From assembly GCF_013371215.1 (NCBI RefSeq), contig NZ_JABWMH010000003.1, positions 496,001 through 560,000 of the forward strand: 64,000 bases of DNA. The letters run 5' to 3'. Below the pieces are notes generated by a model. That model ran no database searches. It had not been told where the DNA came from and saw only the letters and a list, made by a program, of their open reading frames with translations. Shown here piece by piece: positions 27,543 to 35,663 of the stretch. Each line of letters begins with the position of its first letter. Within the stretch, counting starts at the first letter, position 1. This DNA is from Parasphingorhabdus flavimaris (GTDB lineage: Bacteria > Pseudomonadota > Alphaproteobacteria > Sphingomonadales > Sphingomonadaceae). Position numbers and translations under genes: made by a program.

Positions 27543-27616
27543 AATCTGGCCTCTAGGAAAGACCGGCCGGTTTGCACGCCAGCAGAGACCAGCAGAACAG
27601 GGGAACGGGAGAGGGC

Positions 27617-29023
27617 ATGAACGCACAACGCATCGGTCTATGGGCAGGACTTGCCGGATTTGTCATCATGCTGCTGGTTCCGGCTCCGGAAGCCATGTCG
27701 ACGCCCGCCTGGCATGTCGCCGCGCTGACCCTGCTGATGGCGACCTGGTGGATGACCCAGGCGATCCCGCTGACCGCCACCGCGTTGCTGCCGTTTCTGG
27801 CGCTGCCGACAATGGATGTCATGTCGGTCAACGAAACCGCCAGCCAATATTATTCGCCCATCCTTTTCCTCATCCTCGGCGGCGCTTTTCTGGCGCTGGC
27901 GATCGAACGGGTCGGCCTGCACAAGCGTCTGGCGCTGGCGATTATCGGCCTGTCGGGCAAGACCGCCTGGGGCATATTATTCGCCTTCATGATAGCCACC
28001 GCACTGCTCAGCATGCTGATTTCCAACACCTCCTCGACCCTGATCATGATCCCGATAGCGCTGGCGGTATTGGTCGCGGGCGGGGTCAAGGATGGCGAGA
28101 CCGACGGTTTTGCCGGAGCCCTGATCATGGGCGTGGCCTTTGCCGCCTCGATCGGCGGGCTCGGCACATTGGTCGGCAGCCCGACCAATGCGATTGCCGC
28201 CGGCCTGATCAACAAGACTTTGGGCATGAATCTCAATTTTCTCAGCTGGCTGAAATTCGGCATCCCGATCGTGATTATCGGCATTCCTGTTCTCGCCGCT
28301 ATCCTGATAGCCGTCCAAAAGGTCGGGCAGCACAGTTTTGATGGTGTAAAAGCAAAGCTGGCGATCGGCTCGCCGGGGCCGTGGAGCGTGCCGGAAAAAC
28401 GCCTCGTCCCGGTCGTCGCGATTGTCGTGCTCGGCTGGCTGTTCTTGCCGCAGATCAAGACGCTCTTTCCCGACAGCGCGCTGCACGATGGCAGTATTGC
28501 GATTCTTGGCGGCCTGCTCCTGTTCTCCCTGCCCGATGGCACCGGGCGGCGGCTGCTCAACTGGAACGAAGCCGACAAGGCGCCATGGGGCGTGATCATG
28601 CTGTTCGGCGGCGGCCTCGCGCTGGCGGCCGGGATTATCGAATCCGGACTGGCGGATTGGCTCGGCGGCGCGCTTGAGCCGCTGCGGTCGGTGCCGGTGC
28701 TGGTCATCGCCATCGCGCTGGTCGCGCTGGTCATCCTGGTCACCGAATTTGCCTCCAATGTCGCCACCGCCAGCGGCATCATGCCGGTGGTCGCCAGCCT
28801 GATCCTTGCCACCGGGGTCGATCCGGTGTTGCTCGCCGTCCCCGCCGCGATGGCGGCAAGCTGGGGCTTCATGCTGCCCAGCGGGACCGGTCCCAATGCG
28901 ATTGCCTGGTCGACCGGCCATATCGAACTGCCGAAAATGCTGAAATCGGGGCTGCTGCTCGACCTTGCCGGCATCCCGATCATAATCGGCTGCATCTGGA
29001 TGGTTTCCATTGTAACCAGTTAG
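27617..29023 (+). CDS. SLC13/DASS family anion:sodium symporter
   Basis: A 468-residue permease with about twelve hydrophobic segments. It shows the two family repeats: SNTSSTLIMIP near residues 137-147 and ASNVATASGIMP near 379-390, plus GSPTNAIAAG near 188 and LPSGTGPNAIAW near 420. Members carry di- and tricarboxylates or sulfate with Na+; the second SNT is SNV here. The ATG at 27617 has a GAGAGGGC Shine-Dalgarno. The substrate is not determined. Confidence 0.9.
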   Translation: MNAQRIGLWAGLAGFVIMLLVPAPEAMSTPAWHVAALTLLMATWWMTQAIPLTATALLPFLALPTMDVMSVNETASQYYSPILFLILGGAFLALAIERVGLHKRLALAIIGLSGKTAWGILFAFMIATALLSMLISNTSSTLIMIPIALAVLVAGGVKDGETDGFAGALIMGVAFAASIGGLGTLVGSPTNAIAAGLINKTLGMNLNFLSWLKFGIPIVIIGIPVLAAILIAVQKVGQHSFDGVKAKLAIGSPGPWSVPEKRLVPVVAIVVLGWLFLPQIKTLFPDSALHDGSIAILGGLLLFSLPDGTGRRLLNWNEADKAPWGVIMLFGGGLALAAGIIESGLADWLGGALEPLRSVPVLVIAIALVALVILVTEFASNVATASGIMPVVASLILATGVDPVLLAVPAAMAASWGFMLPSGTGPNAIAWSTGHIELPKMLKSGLLLDLAGIPIIIGCIWMVSIVTS

Positions 29024-30463: not shown

Positions 30464-31300
30464 ATGACAAAGCGACCCGTCTACCCTGTGATATTCACCG
30501 ATCTGGATGGCACGCTGCTCGACCATCACAGCTATTCGGCCAAACCGGCCGATGCGCTGGCGGCAAGGCTTTCCAGACAGTCGCTCGCGGAAATCATTCC
30601 GGTCACCAGCAAGACCCACGCGGAACTGCTCTGCCTGCAGCAGGAAATTCCGCTTCCTTTCTCGCTATGCGTGACGGAAAACGGTTCGGTCATCCATGGT
30701 CCCGAAAGCTATTTTCCGGGCGAGGATGGTCGATCCGGCAGGATCACGCTGGGCATCGCCTATCCGGCAATAATGGATCAGATCGGCAAATTGCCCCGTT
30801 CGCTGCGCAGCCATTTCCGCGGTTTTGGAGATATGTCCGTCGACGAGGTTGTCGATGCCACCGGACTGGCCCCCGATGACGCGCGGCGCGCGAAAGACCG
30901 TCAGGCGACCGAGCCCTTTCTCTGGTCCGGTACGGACGGCGAACTGGAAACGCTCGTGGCGATCGTCGCCGAAGCCGGTCTGCGGATTCAGCGCGGCGGG
31001 CGATTCTACCATCTGACCGGCCGCGCGACCAAGGAACAGGCGATGGCACGGATCATCGAAAAGATCGCCGGTCACAAGCCCGATTGCAATCTCGTTTCGA
31101 TCGCTCTCGGGGATGGGCCCAATGATCTGGCGATGATCGAGACGGCCGATTTCGGGGTGATCATGCCCAATCCGCAAGGCGTTACCATCATTTCGACCAG
31201 GCCCGCCGTCCGCACCGCTCCGGCGCCGGGACCAGCGGGCTGGGTGACCGCGGTGACAGAAATTCTGGCAGAATTGGGTTTAAACATTCCCGAAAGCTGA
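30464..31300 (+). CDS. Mannosyl/glucosyl-3-phosphoglycerate phosphatase, HAD-IIB
   Basis: A 278-residue HAD phosphatase of the mannosyl-3-phosphoglycerate phosphatase family. Motif I is FTDLDGTLLDHHSYS (Asp13 nucleophile, Asp15), motif II IPVTSKT near 46-52, ENGSVIHG near 71-78, and motif IV ALGDGPNDLAMIE near 215-227. It would dephosphorylate glucosyl- or mannosyl-3-phosphoglycerate to the free glycerate glycoside, a compatible solute. The glycosyltransferase that makes this substrate starts 34 bases downstream, supporting a GpgP/MpgP role. Confidence 0.88.
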   Translation: MTKRPVYPVIFTDLDGTLLDHHSYSAKPADALAARLSRQSLAEIIPVTSKTHAELLCLQQEIPLPFSLCVTENGSVIHGPESYFPGEDGRSGRITLGIAYPAIMDQIGKLPRSLRSHFRGFGDMSVDEVVDATGLAPDDARRAKDRQATEPFLWSGTDGELETLVAIVAEAGLRIQRGGRFYHLTGRATKEQAMARIIEKIAGHKPDCNLVSIALGDGPNDLAMIETADFGVIMPNPQGVTIISTRPAVRTAPAPGPAGWVTAVTEILAELGLNIPES

Positions 31301-31334
31301 TTAGGCTCGTCTCTCTGCAAGAACAGGGACATCT

Positions 31335-32549
31335 ATGGCTGATTTTCATCAAAACGGTTCAATTTCCACGCTCCACAACCTGTCCGATCGCTCGGTAGAA
31401 TCGCTGGAAGCCGATTTGATGGGCTTTCGCAAAGCCAACCCGATGGCGCTGGTTTTACCCAGCCTGTTTTCCGAACTGGAAGGCCCAGCGCTTGAAAATA
31501 TCGTCGATGAACTTTGCAAGGTGCCCTATCTGGACGACATCATCATCGGACTGGACCGCGCCGACAAGGAACAGTTCGAATATGCAAAGCAATATTTTGC
31601 GCGCCTGCCGCAACGCCATCATATCCTGTGGAACAGCGGCCCGCGGCTGACCGCGCTTGATGGCGAGCTGAAAGAATGCGGCCTGTCACCAGCGGAACCG
31701 GGGAAGGGACGCAATGTCTGGTTCTGCTTCGGCTATTTCCTCTCCGCCACCAATGCCCAGGTGGTCGGGCTGCACGATTGCGACATATTGACCTATGACC
31801 GGGAATTGCTCGCGCGGCTGATGTATCCGGTGGCCAATCCGACATTTCCCTATGTTTTTTCCAAAGGCTATTATGCACGAACAACCGAGGAGAAATTCAA
31901 CGGTCGCGTCGTCCGCCTGCTGATCGGCCCCTTGCTCGCCGCTCTCAAGAAAGTTTGCGAGCCCAACGACTATATCACCTATCTGAACAGCTTCCGCTAC
32001 GCACTGGCCGGCGAATTTGCGATGGGCCGGCAGGTGGTCAAGAATATCCGCATCCCCTCCGACTGGGGTCTGGAAGTGGGGGTCCTGTCCGAAGTGTGGC
32101 GGAACCAGTCGACCCAGTCGATCTGCCAGGTCGAGATTGCCGACAATTACGACCACAAGCACCAGTCGGTTTCGCACGACAATCCCGAAGGCGGTCTGTC
32201 GAAGATGAGCATCGACATCACCAAATCGCTGTTCCGCAAGCTGGCAACCGATGGTCAGGTCTTTTCCTCCGGTACCTTCCGCACACTGAAAGCGACCTAT
32301 TTCCGGATTGCACTCGACAGAATCGAGACCTTCTACAATGACGCAGTGATGAACGGCCTGACGCTCGACCGGCACGAGGAAGAAACGACGGTTGAACTGT
32401 TCGCGCAAAATATCATGACCGCTGGGGAAGTCTTTCTCGAATCACCGAACGAAACGCCCTTCATGGCCAACTGGAACCGGATCAACAGCGCCATTCCGGA
32501 TTTCACCGACCGGTTCAAGGAAGCGGTCCGGCTCGACAACGAAGATTAG
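31335..32549 (+). CDS. gpgS: Glucosyl-3-phosphoglycerate synthase-like glycosyltransferase (GT81)
   Basis: A 404-residue inverted-nucleotide-sugar-type glycosyltransferase. The fold starts at MALVLPSLFSELEG (near 36-49), the metal-binding DxD is D148-C-D150 in GLHDCDILTYD, and DWGLEVGVLSEVWRN near 236-250 is the GpgS-like acceptor region. It would join glucose from NDP-glucose to 3-phosphoglycerate. The adjacent HAD phosphatase completes glucosylglycerate synthesis. Mannosyl transfer cannot be excluded from sequence alone, but the known mannosyl enzyme MpgS is a different family (GT55). Confidence 0.8.
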   Translation: MADFHQNGSISTLHNLSDRSVESLEADLMGFRKANPMALVLPSLFSELEGPALENIVDELCKVPYLDDIIIGLDRADKEQFEYAKQYFARLPQRHHILWNSGPRLTALDGELKECGLSPAEPGKGRNVWFCFGYFLSATNAQVVGLHDCDILTYDRELLARLMYPVANPTFPYVFSKGYYARTTEEKFNGRVVRLLIGPLLAALKKVCEPNDYITYLNSFRYALAGEFAMGRQVVKNIRIPSDWGLEVGVLSEVWRNQSTQSICQVEIADNYDHKHQSVSHDNPEGGLSKMSIDITKSLFRKLATDGQVFSSGTFRTLKATYFRIALDRIETFYNDAVMNGLTLDRHEEETTVELFAQNIMTAGEVFLESPNETPFMANWNRINSAIPDFTDRFKEAVRLDNED

Positions 32550-32560
32550 GCCAGGGAAGA

Positions 32561-34324
32561 CTAGGCCGGGTCGGGCGCGACGTTGCTGAACCAGACGGTG
32601 CGATAGGGCGACAGGCTGAAATCACCCTCGATGTCGGTGATGATATGGCCGGAGATCAGATCCCACCAGCGGTCACCGGCGATCAGATTGATGTCCGCGA
32701 GCGACAGTGTCTTTTCGTCATTTGTCACATTGCTGATCGCGAAGATGCTCTGTGTCCGTTCGCGACTCTGGCGCCAGATGCCGAACAGCCCTTCGGGCAG
32801 CGCCAGCGTGAATTGCACCGCATTGGGGTGAAAGGCCGGTTGCTGCTTGCGGATCTCGACCAGTGAAAGAAACCGCGAGAAGACCTGCGCCTCGACGGTT
32901 TCCGGGTCGGCCAGTTTCGCGCTGATCATATCATAGTCCAGCTGGGACCGGTTGATCGACCGGTTGTGCCCGGTCAGGTTGACATCCTCATAGCTGTTCG
33001 GCGTCGCCAGCAGGCTGTGGATATAGATGGCCGGAATCCCCTCCAGCGCCAGCATGATCCCCATCGCCGCCATGAACCGGTCGATCTGATATTCGTCCGG
33101 TCCGTCCAGCGTGCCCTGCATCGCTTCAAAAAAGGAGATGTTCATCTCATAGGGCTTCTCGGTTCCGCCCGGACCGCGCCGCATCGACACGCGCCCGCCA
33201 AAGCCCTGGATAGTGGCCAGCATCTGGTCGACCTCGCCTTGCGGCAGCGCCCCCTCGGTCGGACGCAGGCCGATCCCGTCGTGGCTGGCGGTGAAATTGA
33301 GATAGGTGCAGCCGGTCAGCGCCGGCGGATTGCTCCGCGTCAGACGTTTCAGATAGAGTGCGTTGCCGGTCAGCAGCGCGTGGACCAGCAGCGGCGGCAG
33401 CGAGAAATTATAGATGACATGCGCTTCGTTCTGGTTGCCGAAATAGGTCAGATTCTCGTGATTGGGAATGTTGGTCTCGGTGATGATGATCAGCGTCTCC
33501 GCATGATGGTCCATCAGCGTCCGGAGGAGCCTGATGATCTCGTGGGTTTCGTCGAGATTGATCGAGGGCGTGCCGATTTTCTTCCACAGGAACGCAACCG
33601 CGTCGAGCCGGAAAATCCGCACGCCATGGTCGATATAGGCGGCGATGATCTTGACAAATTCGATCAGCAGCTCGGGATTGGTGAAATCGAAATCCAGCTG
33701 GTCGCGGCTGAATGTGCTCCAGACATGGCGGTCGCCGGACGCCGTGCGAAACGGCGTCAGCAGCGGATGTGCCCGCGGACGCACCACCTGCCCGAGGTCG
33801 GCGGCTGGATCGGCGGTATAATAATAATCCTTGCCCGGCGCTTCATCGGACAGAAATTGCTGGAACCAGACCGATTTGCTCGATCCGTGATTGATCACCA
33901 GATCGCCCATCAGCCGATAGTCGCCGGCAATGGCCTCGATATCGGACCAGTCGCCCAGCTCCTCGTCGACCGCGAGATAGTCGATCACCCCGAACCCGTC
34001 ATCGCAGCTATAGGGAAAAAACGGCAGGATATGCACGGCACCGATCGTCTGGCCGATATGCTGCTTCAGGAAGCGATGCAGTGTCCGCAGCGGCCGCTCG
34101 TCATCCGAGCGGATCGTGCCGCCATAGGTGATCATCGCGACATCGCTCTCGTCCCACAAATGCTTGTCGGCGATTTCCGACCGCGGGATCATCTTGCTCT
34201 TGTCGGGCCAGAACAGTTCGACGATGCGCTTTGCCAGCGCCTCGCAATCATGATCGGGGTAGACCGCGCCCAGATGCGCCGTCAGCCGTTGCAGAAGATG
34301 GTCGATAGTGGCGCGGTCGTTCAT
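32561..34324 (-). CDS. GH13_18 phosphorylase, probable glucosylglycerate phosphorylase
   Basis: A 587-residue (from ATG 34324) alpha-amylase-family enzyme of the sucrose-phosphorylase group. Visible: FPYSCDDGFGVIDY near residues 103-116, nucleophile Asp241 in IFRLDAVAFLWK, acid/base Glu in ITETNIPNHEN near 284, and the transition-state Asp in SHDGIGLRPTEG near 345. GH13_18 holds sucrose, sucrose-6'-phosphate and glucosylglycerate phosphorylases (E. coli YcjM). The neighbours favour glucosylglycerate: phosphorolysis would give glucose 1-phosphate and glycerate. A GTG at 34339 is an alternative start. Confidence 0.85.
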   Translation of the reverse strand: MNDRATIDHLLQRLTAHLGAVYPDHDCEALAKRIVELFWPDKSKMIPRSEIADKHLWDESDVAMITYGGTIRSDDERPLRTLHRFLKQHIGQTIGAVHILPFFPYSCDDGFGVIDYLAVDEELGDWSDIEAIAGDYRLMGDLVINHGSSKSVWFQQFLSDEAPGKDYYYTADPAADLGQVVRPRAHPLLTPFRTASGDRHVWSTFSRDQLDFDFTNPELLIEFVKIIAAYIDHGVRIFRLDAVAFLWKKIGTPSINLDETHEIIRLLRTLMDHHAETLIIITETNIPNHENLTYFGNQNEAHVIYNFSLPPLLVHALLTGNALYLKRLTRSNPPALTGCTYLNFTASHDGIGLRPTEGALPQGEVDQMLATIQGFGGRVSMRRGPGGTEKPYEMNISFFEAMQGTLDGPDEYQIDRFMAAMGIMLALEGIPAIYIHSLLATPNSYEDVNLTGHNRSINRSQLDYDMISAKLADPETVEAQVFSRFLSLVEIRKQQPAFHPNAVQFTLALPEGLFGIWRQSRERTQSIFAISNVTNDEKTLSLADINLIAGDRWWDLISGHIITDIEGDFSLSPYRTVWFSNVAPDPA

Positions 34325-34388
34325 GGCTGCTTCTGTCACTCCGAAAATCTTCTTGACCCCGGCGGAACAATCGGGCCCTTATTGTGCA

Positions 34389-35663
34389 GTGCATCAAACA
34401 ACAAATCCCGATTCAATAAAAGCCTTTTTAGCGGATCTCTATTTGCAGGCGCTACAACCGGCGCTTCCGACCAACGCGATGCGCGCCGTCCAATGGCCAC
34501 AGGTGCCCGGCCGGACCTACCTGCTGTCCATTGGCAAGGCGGCCAGCCAGATGGCTTCTGCTATCCTCGATCGTCTGCCGGAAAATGTCGACGGTTTGAT
34601 CGTCACGCGTCAGGGCTATGTCGAGCCGAGCTTTGCGCCGGACAATCTGCAGATTGTCGAAGCCTCGCATCCGGTCCCGGATTCGGTCGGCGCGGAGGCG
34701 GCGCAACGCGCATTGCAGGCGGCGGACGCGCTTGGCGCAGATGATCTGCTGCTGGTGCTGATGTCGGGCGGCGCCAGCGCGCTGCTCCCCGCTCCGGCCG
34801 ACGGGATATCGCTGGCCGAGAAACAGGCTGTCACCCGAGCTTTGCTGGGCAGCGGCGCGCCGATCAGCGAGATGAACATGGTCCGCAAACATCTCTCGGC
34901 GATCAAGGGAGGAAGGCTGGCGGCGAGAGCCTGGCCGGCGGCGACCCATATGATCGCCATTTCCGATATTCCCGGCGACGATATCGCGATGATCGGCTCG
35001 GGTCCTACGGCCGCGGACAGCTCGACCTGCGCCGATACGCTGGCGATTGCCGACAAATATGACATCATATTACCGCCAGCGATCCAGAGCCGGTTGCTCT
35101 CCGGCGCGCTGGAAACGCCGAAGGCCGACGATCCGAAGATGCAGCGGACGACCGCCACCCTATGCGCCCGGCCGGCGGATATGTGCGCGGCGGCGGTCGA
35201 AGCCGTTCGTGCCATGGGCTATGAAGCGATCATGCTGGGCGATGCGCTGGAGGGCGACGCGCTGGAACTCGGGCGCGACCATGCCGCACAGGCGCTGGCA
35301 ATCAAGGCCAGTGGTCGCAAGGCGGCCCTGATATCCGGTGGCGAGGCGACGGTGACCTTGCGCAACCGCAATGGTCGCGGTGGCCGCTGCACCGCCTATC
35401 TGCTGGCCTGCGCCCTGGCATTGCAGGGTGAGCGCGATATCTGCGGCTTTGCTGCCGACAGCGACGGCATCGACGGTTCGGAAGACAATGCCGGTGGCTA
35501 CTTGTGGCCCGGGATATTGGACCTGATGGGCGGGGCAGGGCAGGCGCGAGAACTGCTCGAACAGGACAATAGCTATCTGGCCTTTGAAAAGGCCGGCGCC
35601 CTGCTGATGACCGGGCCGTCGGGCACCAATGTGAACGACTTGAGAGTGATCCTCGTCGGCTGA
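34389..35663 (+). CDS. Glycerate kinase, MOFRL family (GckA/TtuD)
   Basis: About 424 residues. N-terminal MOFRL-associated domain (YLLSIGKAASQM; VLMSGGASALLPAP near 120; MNMVRKHLSAIKGGRLA near 163) and a C-terminal MOFRL domain (AALISGGEATVTL; DSDGIDGSEDNAGG near 353). The family phosphorylates D-glycerate to 2-phosphoglycerate. I prefer the GTG at 34389, giving the usual family length; ATG 34323 would overlap the start codon of the divergent GH13 gene. It would recycle glycerate released by the adjacent phosphorylase. Confidence 0.85.
   Translation: MHQTTNPDSIKAFLADLYLQALQPALPTNAMRAVQWPQVPGRTYLLSIGKAASQMASAILDRLPENVDGLIVTRQGYVEPSFAPDNLQIVEASHPVPDSVGAEAAQRALQAADALGADDLLLVLMSGGASALLPAPADGISLAEKQAVTRALLGSGAPISEMNMVRKHLSAIKGGRLAARAWPAATHMIAISDIPGDDIAMIGSGPTAADSSTCADTLAIADKYDIILPPAIQSRLLSGALETPKADDPKMQRTTATLCARPADMCAAAVEAVRAMGYEAIMLGDALEGDALELGRDHAAQALAIKASGRKAALISGGEATVTLRNRNGRGGRCTAYLLACALALQGERDICGFAADSDGIDGSEDNAGGYLWPGILDLMGGAGQARELLEQDNSYLAFEKAGALLMTGPSGTNVNDLRVILVG

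Follow-up and report, generated by a model that had tools for sequence, protein, structure and literature searches.

Genes for glucosylglycerate phosphorylases are often accompanied by genes for a glycerate kinase, GpgS or GpgP, according to the available part of PMC7178133, where the metabolic function of the phosphorylase is described as unconfirmed by experiment and its study in various organisms as helpful. In Marinobacter, homologues (at least 30% identity) of GpgS, GpgP and the phosphorylase were all present in 198 of 250 isolates when Synechococcus sp. PCC 7002 A2021-A2023 served as queries (main text of PMC10873239), and glucosylglycerate is mentioned as an osmolyte in the section seen of PMC5507952. 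Here we describe a four-gene module at positions 30464-35663 of a 64,000-nucleotide stretch of Parasphingorhabdus flavimaris DNA (the whole stretch is called the window), encoding an MPGP-family HAD phosphatase, a GpgS-like transferase, a GH13_18 phosphorylase and a MOFRL/DUF4147 kinase. We suggest, with a probability of roughly 0.85, that the module is a self-contained cassette for the synthesis and recovery of the compatible solute 2-O-alpha-glucosyl-D-glycerate. An earlier sequence-only reading had proposed a make-and-recycle module from these four adjacent genes; all four open reading frames are present at that place, each family call holds by profile and sequence matches, and homology supports the proposed module.

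The phosphorylase and its predicted substrate

The predicted glucosylglycerate phosphorylase (GH13_18) is encoded on the minus strand at 32561-34324 and has 587 amino acids from ATG 34324, or 592 from an alternative GTG at 34339. The accessible text of PMC7178133 gives two markers for this enzyme, (T/S)ETN at strand 5 and a Glu in loop A. We detected both in the window phosphorylase, as TETN 287-290 (T287-E288-T289-N290) and E398, and they are kept in 82/82 aligned rows (the window, E. coli YcjM and 80 relatives), together with the catalytic residues D246 (nucleophile), E288 (acid/base) and D354 (stabiliser). The Pfam Alpha-amylase match is above cut-off and is the only one of its own genome.

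It is very improbable that the phosphorylase belongs to the sucrose type of GH13_18 (acting on sucrose, sucrose 6-phosphate or glucosylglycerol) and stands merely beside a glucosylglycerate synthesis operon. The best solved relatives of the phosphorylase by sequence are indeed sucrose and glucosylglycerol phosphorylases and its best NCBIfam model is sucrose phosphorylase (TIGR03852), but it reaches only about half of the cut-off of that model (174.8 bits against 334.4), and TETN with the loop A Glu separates it from the sucrose-type clades under the rule in the part seen of PMC7178133. It also aligns with YcjM across 574 columns at 37% identity, and YcjM is listed among the characterised glucosylglycerate phosphorylases in the portion consulted of PMC8950772. 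Identity as a sucrose phosphorylase was rejected, with the TIGR03852 cut-off missed and differing marker residues; as far as sequence tells, the choice between glucosylglycerate and sucrose that the sequence-only reading had raised is supported in favour of the glucosylglycerate type.

The predicted synthesis genes

The first gene of the plus-strand pair (30464-31300, 278 amino acids) encodes a GpgP-like HAD phosphatase of the mannosyl/glucosyl-3-phosphoglycerate phosphatase family, which passed the cut-off of TIGR01486 (MPGP family; 208.6 bits, cut-off 164.75) and matched the structures 1xvi (E 4e-31) and 3ztw (E 2e-23) by phmmer. The HAD residues D13, D15, S49, D217 and N220 are kept in 77/77 aligned phosphatase rows.

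The predicted glucosyl-3-phosphoglycerate synthase, GpgS-like (GT81-like), starts 34 bases past the phosphatase gene (31335-32549, plus strand, 404 amino acids). Its best full-length model is GpgS (NF040724, GpgS_Meth), with 351.4 bits across residues 3-403, about half of the cut-off of 700; NF010496 is related as well, at 67.8 bits against a cut-off of 262. The GpgS structures 7pdo/7p5l were found by phmmer at E 1e-6. The sequence search of the Protein Data Bank gave six distinct sequences, five of them named GpgS or MpgS and the sixth (3e25) a 'putative uncharacterized protein', and a ten-row transferase profile found two GpgS and one MpgS with weaker E-values (7e-5 for GpgS, 8e-5 for MpgS). 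The DCD at 148-150 is aligned to DSD of 7pdo and the PGKG to PGKG, and G123-K124-G125, D148 and D150 are invariant in 10/10 rows; we take DxD and GKG to be motifs of GpgS (GT81) function.

Side by side with its neighbour, the phosphatase is diverging much faster: its identity to the loci L022, L023, L025 and L129 is 67, 60, 63 and 52%, against 99, 90, 96 and 91% for the adjoining transferase.

A synthesis arm that yields mannosylglycerate instead of glucosylglycerate is a far-fetched alternative. In favour of a mannoside, the phosphatase has matches among the mannosyl-3-phosphoglycerate phosphatase models, and one of the weak structural matches of the transferase is a mannosyl-3-phosphoglycerate synthase. 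Against it, GpgS is the model that fits the transferase best at full length, and the neighbour of the transferase in 76 of the 80 best loci is a phosphorylase with glucosylglycerate markers. To our knowledge, a glucosylglycerate phosphorylase would not recover a mannoside, which also counts against mannosylglycerate.

The predicted glycerate kinase and the proposed cycle

The predicted MOFRL/DUF4147 glycerate 2-kinase (34389-35663, plus strand) matches PF13660 (246.6 bits) and PF05161 (95.6 bits), both above cut-off, and the structure 2b8n, 'glycerate kinase, putative' (E 9e-71). The longest frame starts from GTG 34308 and opens within the phosphorylase gene. The homology begins only from about residue 28 (the 2b8n alignment from query residue 29, that of L004 from residue 25), which makes GTG 34389 the more probable start, with a 64-base spacer remaining. 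The product of MOFRL kinases is presumably 2-phosphoglycerate, as known for the family. The genome has a single PF13660 match. It gave none to PF02595 glycerate kinase or to PF00982 trehalose-6-phosphate synthase, while the positive control of each search responded, and these results speak for the cassette.

From these families we infer the following reactions. In the synthesis half, on the plus strand, the GpgS-like enzyme would transfer glucose from a nucleoside diphosphate glucose to 3-phosphoglycerate, and the HAD phosphatase would then strip the phosphate, giving glucosylglycerate. In the recovery half, the minus-strand phosphorylase would use phosphate to release D-glycerate and alpha-glucose 1-phosphate, thereby conserving the bond energy of the glycoside; the divergent MOFRL kinase would convert D-glycerate to 2-phosphoglycerate, which would enter lower glycolysis. 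By the established biochemistry of these families, each turn would consume one ATP in the kinase step and one nucleoside triphosphate in the reactivation of glucose 1-phosphate, so that the two halves should not run together; their placement on opposite strands would permit separate control of synthesis and recovery, and the halves are probably controlled in opposite senses. The solute may serve as an osmolyte or as a reserve.

Linkage among relatives

Four aligned phosphorylases, used to scan a genome collection, gave at least 590 stretches with at least 577 confirmed relatives, from which the best 80 loci were retained; these hold the closest relatives of the phosphorylase, and the counts apply to them and are not valid for the whole enzyme family. 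We detected the phosphatase, transferase and phosphorylase genes together in 76/80, contiguous in every one of the 76 with gaps below 300 bases. Two other loci (L035, L041) have the transferase and the phosphorylase, with the transferase at the very start of the available stretch, and two cyanobacterial loci (L094, L097) have only the phosphorylase within the available stretch. The core genes all run in one direction in 68 of the 80. Chance adjacency was rejected on the contiguity of the core in the 76 loci, and linkage in relatives, whose absence had been named as a ground for giving up the module, is thus well represented. Among the matches listed, the closest named relatives of the module come from uncultured Sphingomonadaceae and Sphingopyxis.

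Different kinases beside the same core

The kinase position varies among the 80 loci: a MOFRL kinase was found in 6, a different P-loop kinase in 44 and neither in 30. The P-loop kinase of L026, the one of the 44 that was compared with the Protein Data Bank, had its best matches with D-glycerate 3-kinases (6ckg, E 1e-22; 7xpc, E 6e-20), while that of L093 gave no Pfam match; against NCBIfam, both had weak matches to nucleoside and pantothenate kinases. The P-loop kinase gene ends less than 200 bases from the phosphatase gene and on the same strand in 42/44 loci. In two loci the P-loop kinase domain (D-glycerate 3-kinase-like) is joined to the glucosyl-3-phosphoglycerate phosphatase-like domain in one reading frame, of 577 amino acids at L033 6974-8707 (an Alteromonadaceae metagenome-assembled genome) and of 602 amino acids at L091 2714-4522 (a Pseudoalteromonas strain). 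A GarK-type kinase in the kinase-less loci was also considered and rejected: E. coli GarK in tblastn at E 1e-4 matched 0/93 loci, in a search run without a positive control.

The phylogenetic tree of MOFRL kinases covered 27 sequences, 10 from modules and 17 non-module kinases, the latter from Sphingomonadaceae genomes only. Six module kinases, the group of the window, stand apart from four others (Micavibrio/Rhodomicrobium-type group), a separation for which well supported branches demand two changes. In the Micavibrio/Rhodomicrobium-type group, three of four rows differ in letter make-up from the rest of the alignment, which calls for caution with this tree. One MOFRL kinase common to both module groups was rejected on these two forced changes, in a small sample and with the composition caveat. 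The layout differs as well, the kinase gene being divergent in the window's group and placed before the phosphorylase gene in the same direction in the Micavibrio/Rhodomicrobium-type group. The transferase tree unites both MOFRL groups and the P-loop kinase locus L118 in one supported fork (99/97); the phosphorylase tree also unites the two groups, with support 93, but leaves L118 outside that fork.

MOFRL kinases thus appear, from these trees, to have joined a shared core at least twice; a single MOFRL origin followed by later exchange is a conceivable alternative to separate captures. We lean, at a little better than even odds, towards the hypothesis that the function of a glycerate kinase is wanted while the enzyme that supplies it can be exchanged, and that on three or more occasions the three-gene core has acquired a kinase of separate derivation or without homology to the others. 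The captures meant, held with the same slight preference, are the MOFRL kinase of the window's group, the other MOFRL kinase of the Micavibrio/Rhodomicrobium-type group and the P-loop kinase, fused in two cases. If this is true, the closed glucosylglycerate cycle would return 3-phosphoglycerate, the acceptor of the synthase itself, or 2-phosphoglycerate, depending on the lineage. The recurrent and differing kinases suggest that glycerate salvage is part of the pathway, and the kinase change between lineages together with the fusions provides comparative evidence for the recovery of glycerate rather than its discard; the 24 loci described below in which none of the three kinase kinds was found weigh against salvage as part of the pathway.

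Distribution and genome context

Of 149 sampled Sphingomonadaceae genomes, 3 have the transferase, and these same 3 also have the orthologous phosphorylase; 13 further genomes gave matches at 34% identity or less. The sequence-only reading had asked for conserved linkage of the four genes among sphingomonads: the MOFRL kinase does adjoin the module in all 3 holders, but at 3/149 the module is rare and is no general trait of the family. MOFRL-family kinases are commoner (17/149 genomes). At the level of the class, the transferase is present in 12/385 genomes. Of the eleven holders besides that of the window, nine have the phosphorylase within the fetched stretch and two do not; these two (L126, L127) have the transferase with the phosphatase and no phosphorylase within the fetched 18 kb. 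About 0.9 kb separates the phosphorylase from the transferase in L128.

The DNA of the module can be aligned to that of L022, L023, L025 and L129, and the rest of the 64 kb window is without a match in the available flanks. The L022 module, at 89% identity across 5185 bases, gives good evidence for the same module in a different neighbourhood; for L023, L025 and L129, at 73-76% DNA identity, divergence may also mask flank matches. In L130, from the same genus, the surroundings of the module match as well. Base composition gave no sign of a recent foreign origin, with a guanine plus cytosine (GC) content of 59.8% in the module and 59.6% in the window; the transferase gene alone has 55.5% GC. 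A search for transfer RNA genes at six module loci found none. In L024 (14544-15737, on a contig titled Kordiimonas), the core stands beside a gene that resembles a tyrosine integrase by eye; its phosphorylase is 81% and its transferase 89% identical, and no MOFRL kinase was found.

The coordinates confirm the proposed arrangement of the window genes. The synthesis genes converge on the phosphorylase gene with a stop-to-stop distance of 11 bases between the transferase (plus) and the phosphorylase (minus), and the phosphorylase gene is divergent from the kinase gene across the 64-base spacer at 34325-34388, as delimited by the gene positions with the likely kinase start. This spacer is expected to hold putative control sites of the recycling genes. 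In a seven-locus alignment the best conserved stretch was the first kinase codons rather than the spacer; no sigma-70-like match fell within 34325-34388, and the sigma-70 scan gave 1 site against 1.9 expected. The neighbours tested upstream encode a PF02578 protein, a PF00939 anion transporter (27572-29023) and a Cys/Met-metabolism pyridoxal phosphate enzyme, and those downstream a GreA/GreB C-terminal protein, a DUF1993 protein, another HAD protein and an MlaE permease.

Discussion

Several results weigh against a glucosylglycerate cassette. The transferase stays below the NCBI equivalog cut-offs and has no family match in Pfam, and the mannosyl enzyme 3f1y is among its weak structural matches, so that the sequence does not settle which sugar is donated. 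The phosphatase reached no equivalog (single-function) cut-off in NCBIfam, and the kinase stays below the cut-offs of the NCBIfam glycerate 2-kinase models (NF041176, 206.3 of 550 bits; NF040791, 157.3 of 670 bits). After setting aside 6 of the 30 kinase-less loci, in which the phosphatase is absent or lies less than 1 kb from the start of the available stretch, 24 of the best 80, with more than 1 kb beyond the phosphatase, contain none of the three kinase kinds sought, and a linked kinase is therefore common but not obligate. A BCCT-family transporter is present in the genome, so that the module need not be the only osmolyte route.

A main role of the enzymes in breaking down imported glucosylglycerate or in a carbon reserve, with osmoprotection in second place, is unlikely in our view, though a more serious contender than a sucrose-type enzyme or a mannoside. 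The company of the E. coli phosphorylase gene, with transport and dehydrogenase genes and no GpgS, would fit such a role, as would the statement, in the part available of PMC7178133, that many holders are regarded as non-accumulators of the solute. The PF00939 anion transporter gene, two genes upstream of the module, could be read in the same way, but the Cys/Met-metabolism gene stands between the two, and the synthesis genes are adjacent here. We know of no sugar carrier in the PF00939 family, which also counts against import. The proposed glucosylglycerate cassette is compact and contains the only Alpha-amylase match of its genome, and it is thus suited to a direct test of turnover.

The described systems share much with the window. 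The glucosylglycerate phosphorylase clusters of GH13_18 (Franceus et al. 2017, via the parts seen of PMC7178133 and PMC11009771) have the same marker residues and the same gene company, so that this company was already in print and the window adds one more case. The Synechococcus sp. PCC 7002 A2021-A2023 and Marinobacter set has a core like that of the window, with no kinase mentioned in the main text of PMC10873239. The E. coli ycjM cluster has a homologous phosphorylase, annotated as glucosylglycerate phosphorylase; its annotated 20 kb stretch has no GpgS, GpgP or glycerate kinase annotation and contains ATP-binding cassette (ABC) transporter and sugar dehydrogenase genes instead. Our search of the open literature found no paper linking the core genes with the kinase, which does not prove that none exists. 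In contrast to the GH13_18 clusters, for which the kinase type and the layout are unnamed in the text available of PMC7178133 and PMC11009771, the synthesis genes of the window converge on a phosphorylase gene that is itself divergent from a MOFRL-type kinase gene. What the comparison adds is that the three core genes stay the same from one related cluster to another while the accompanying glycerate kinase differs.

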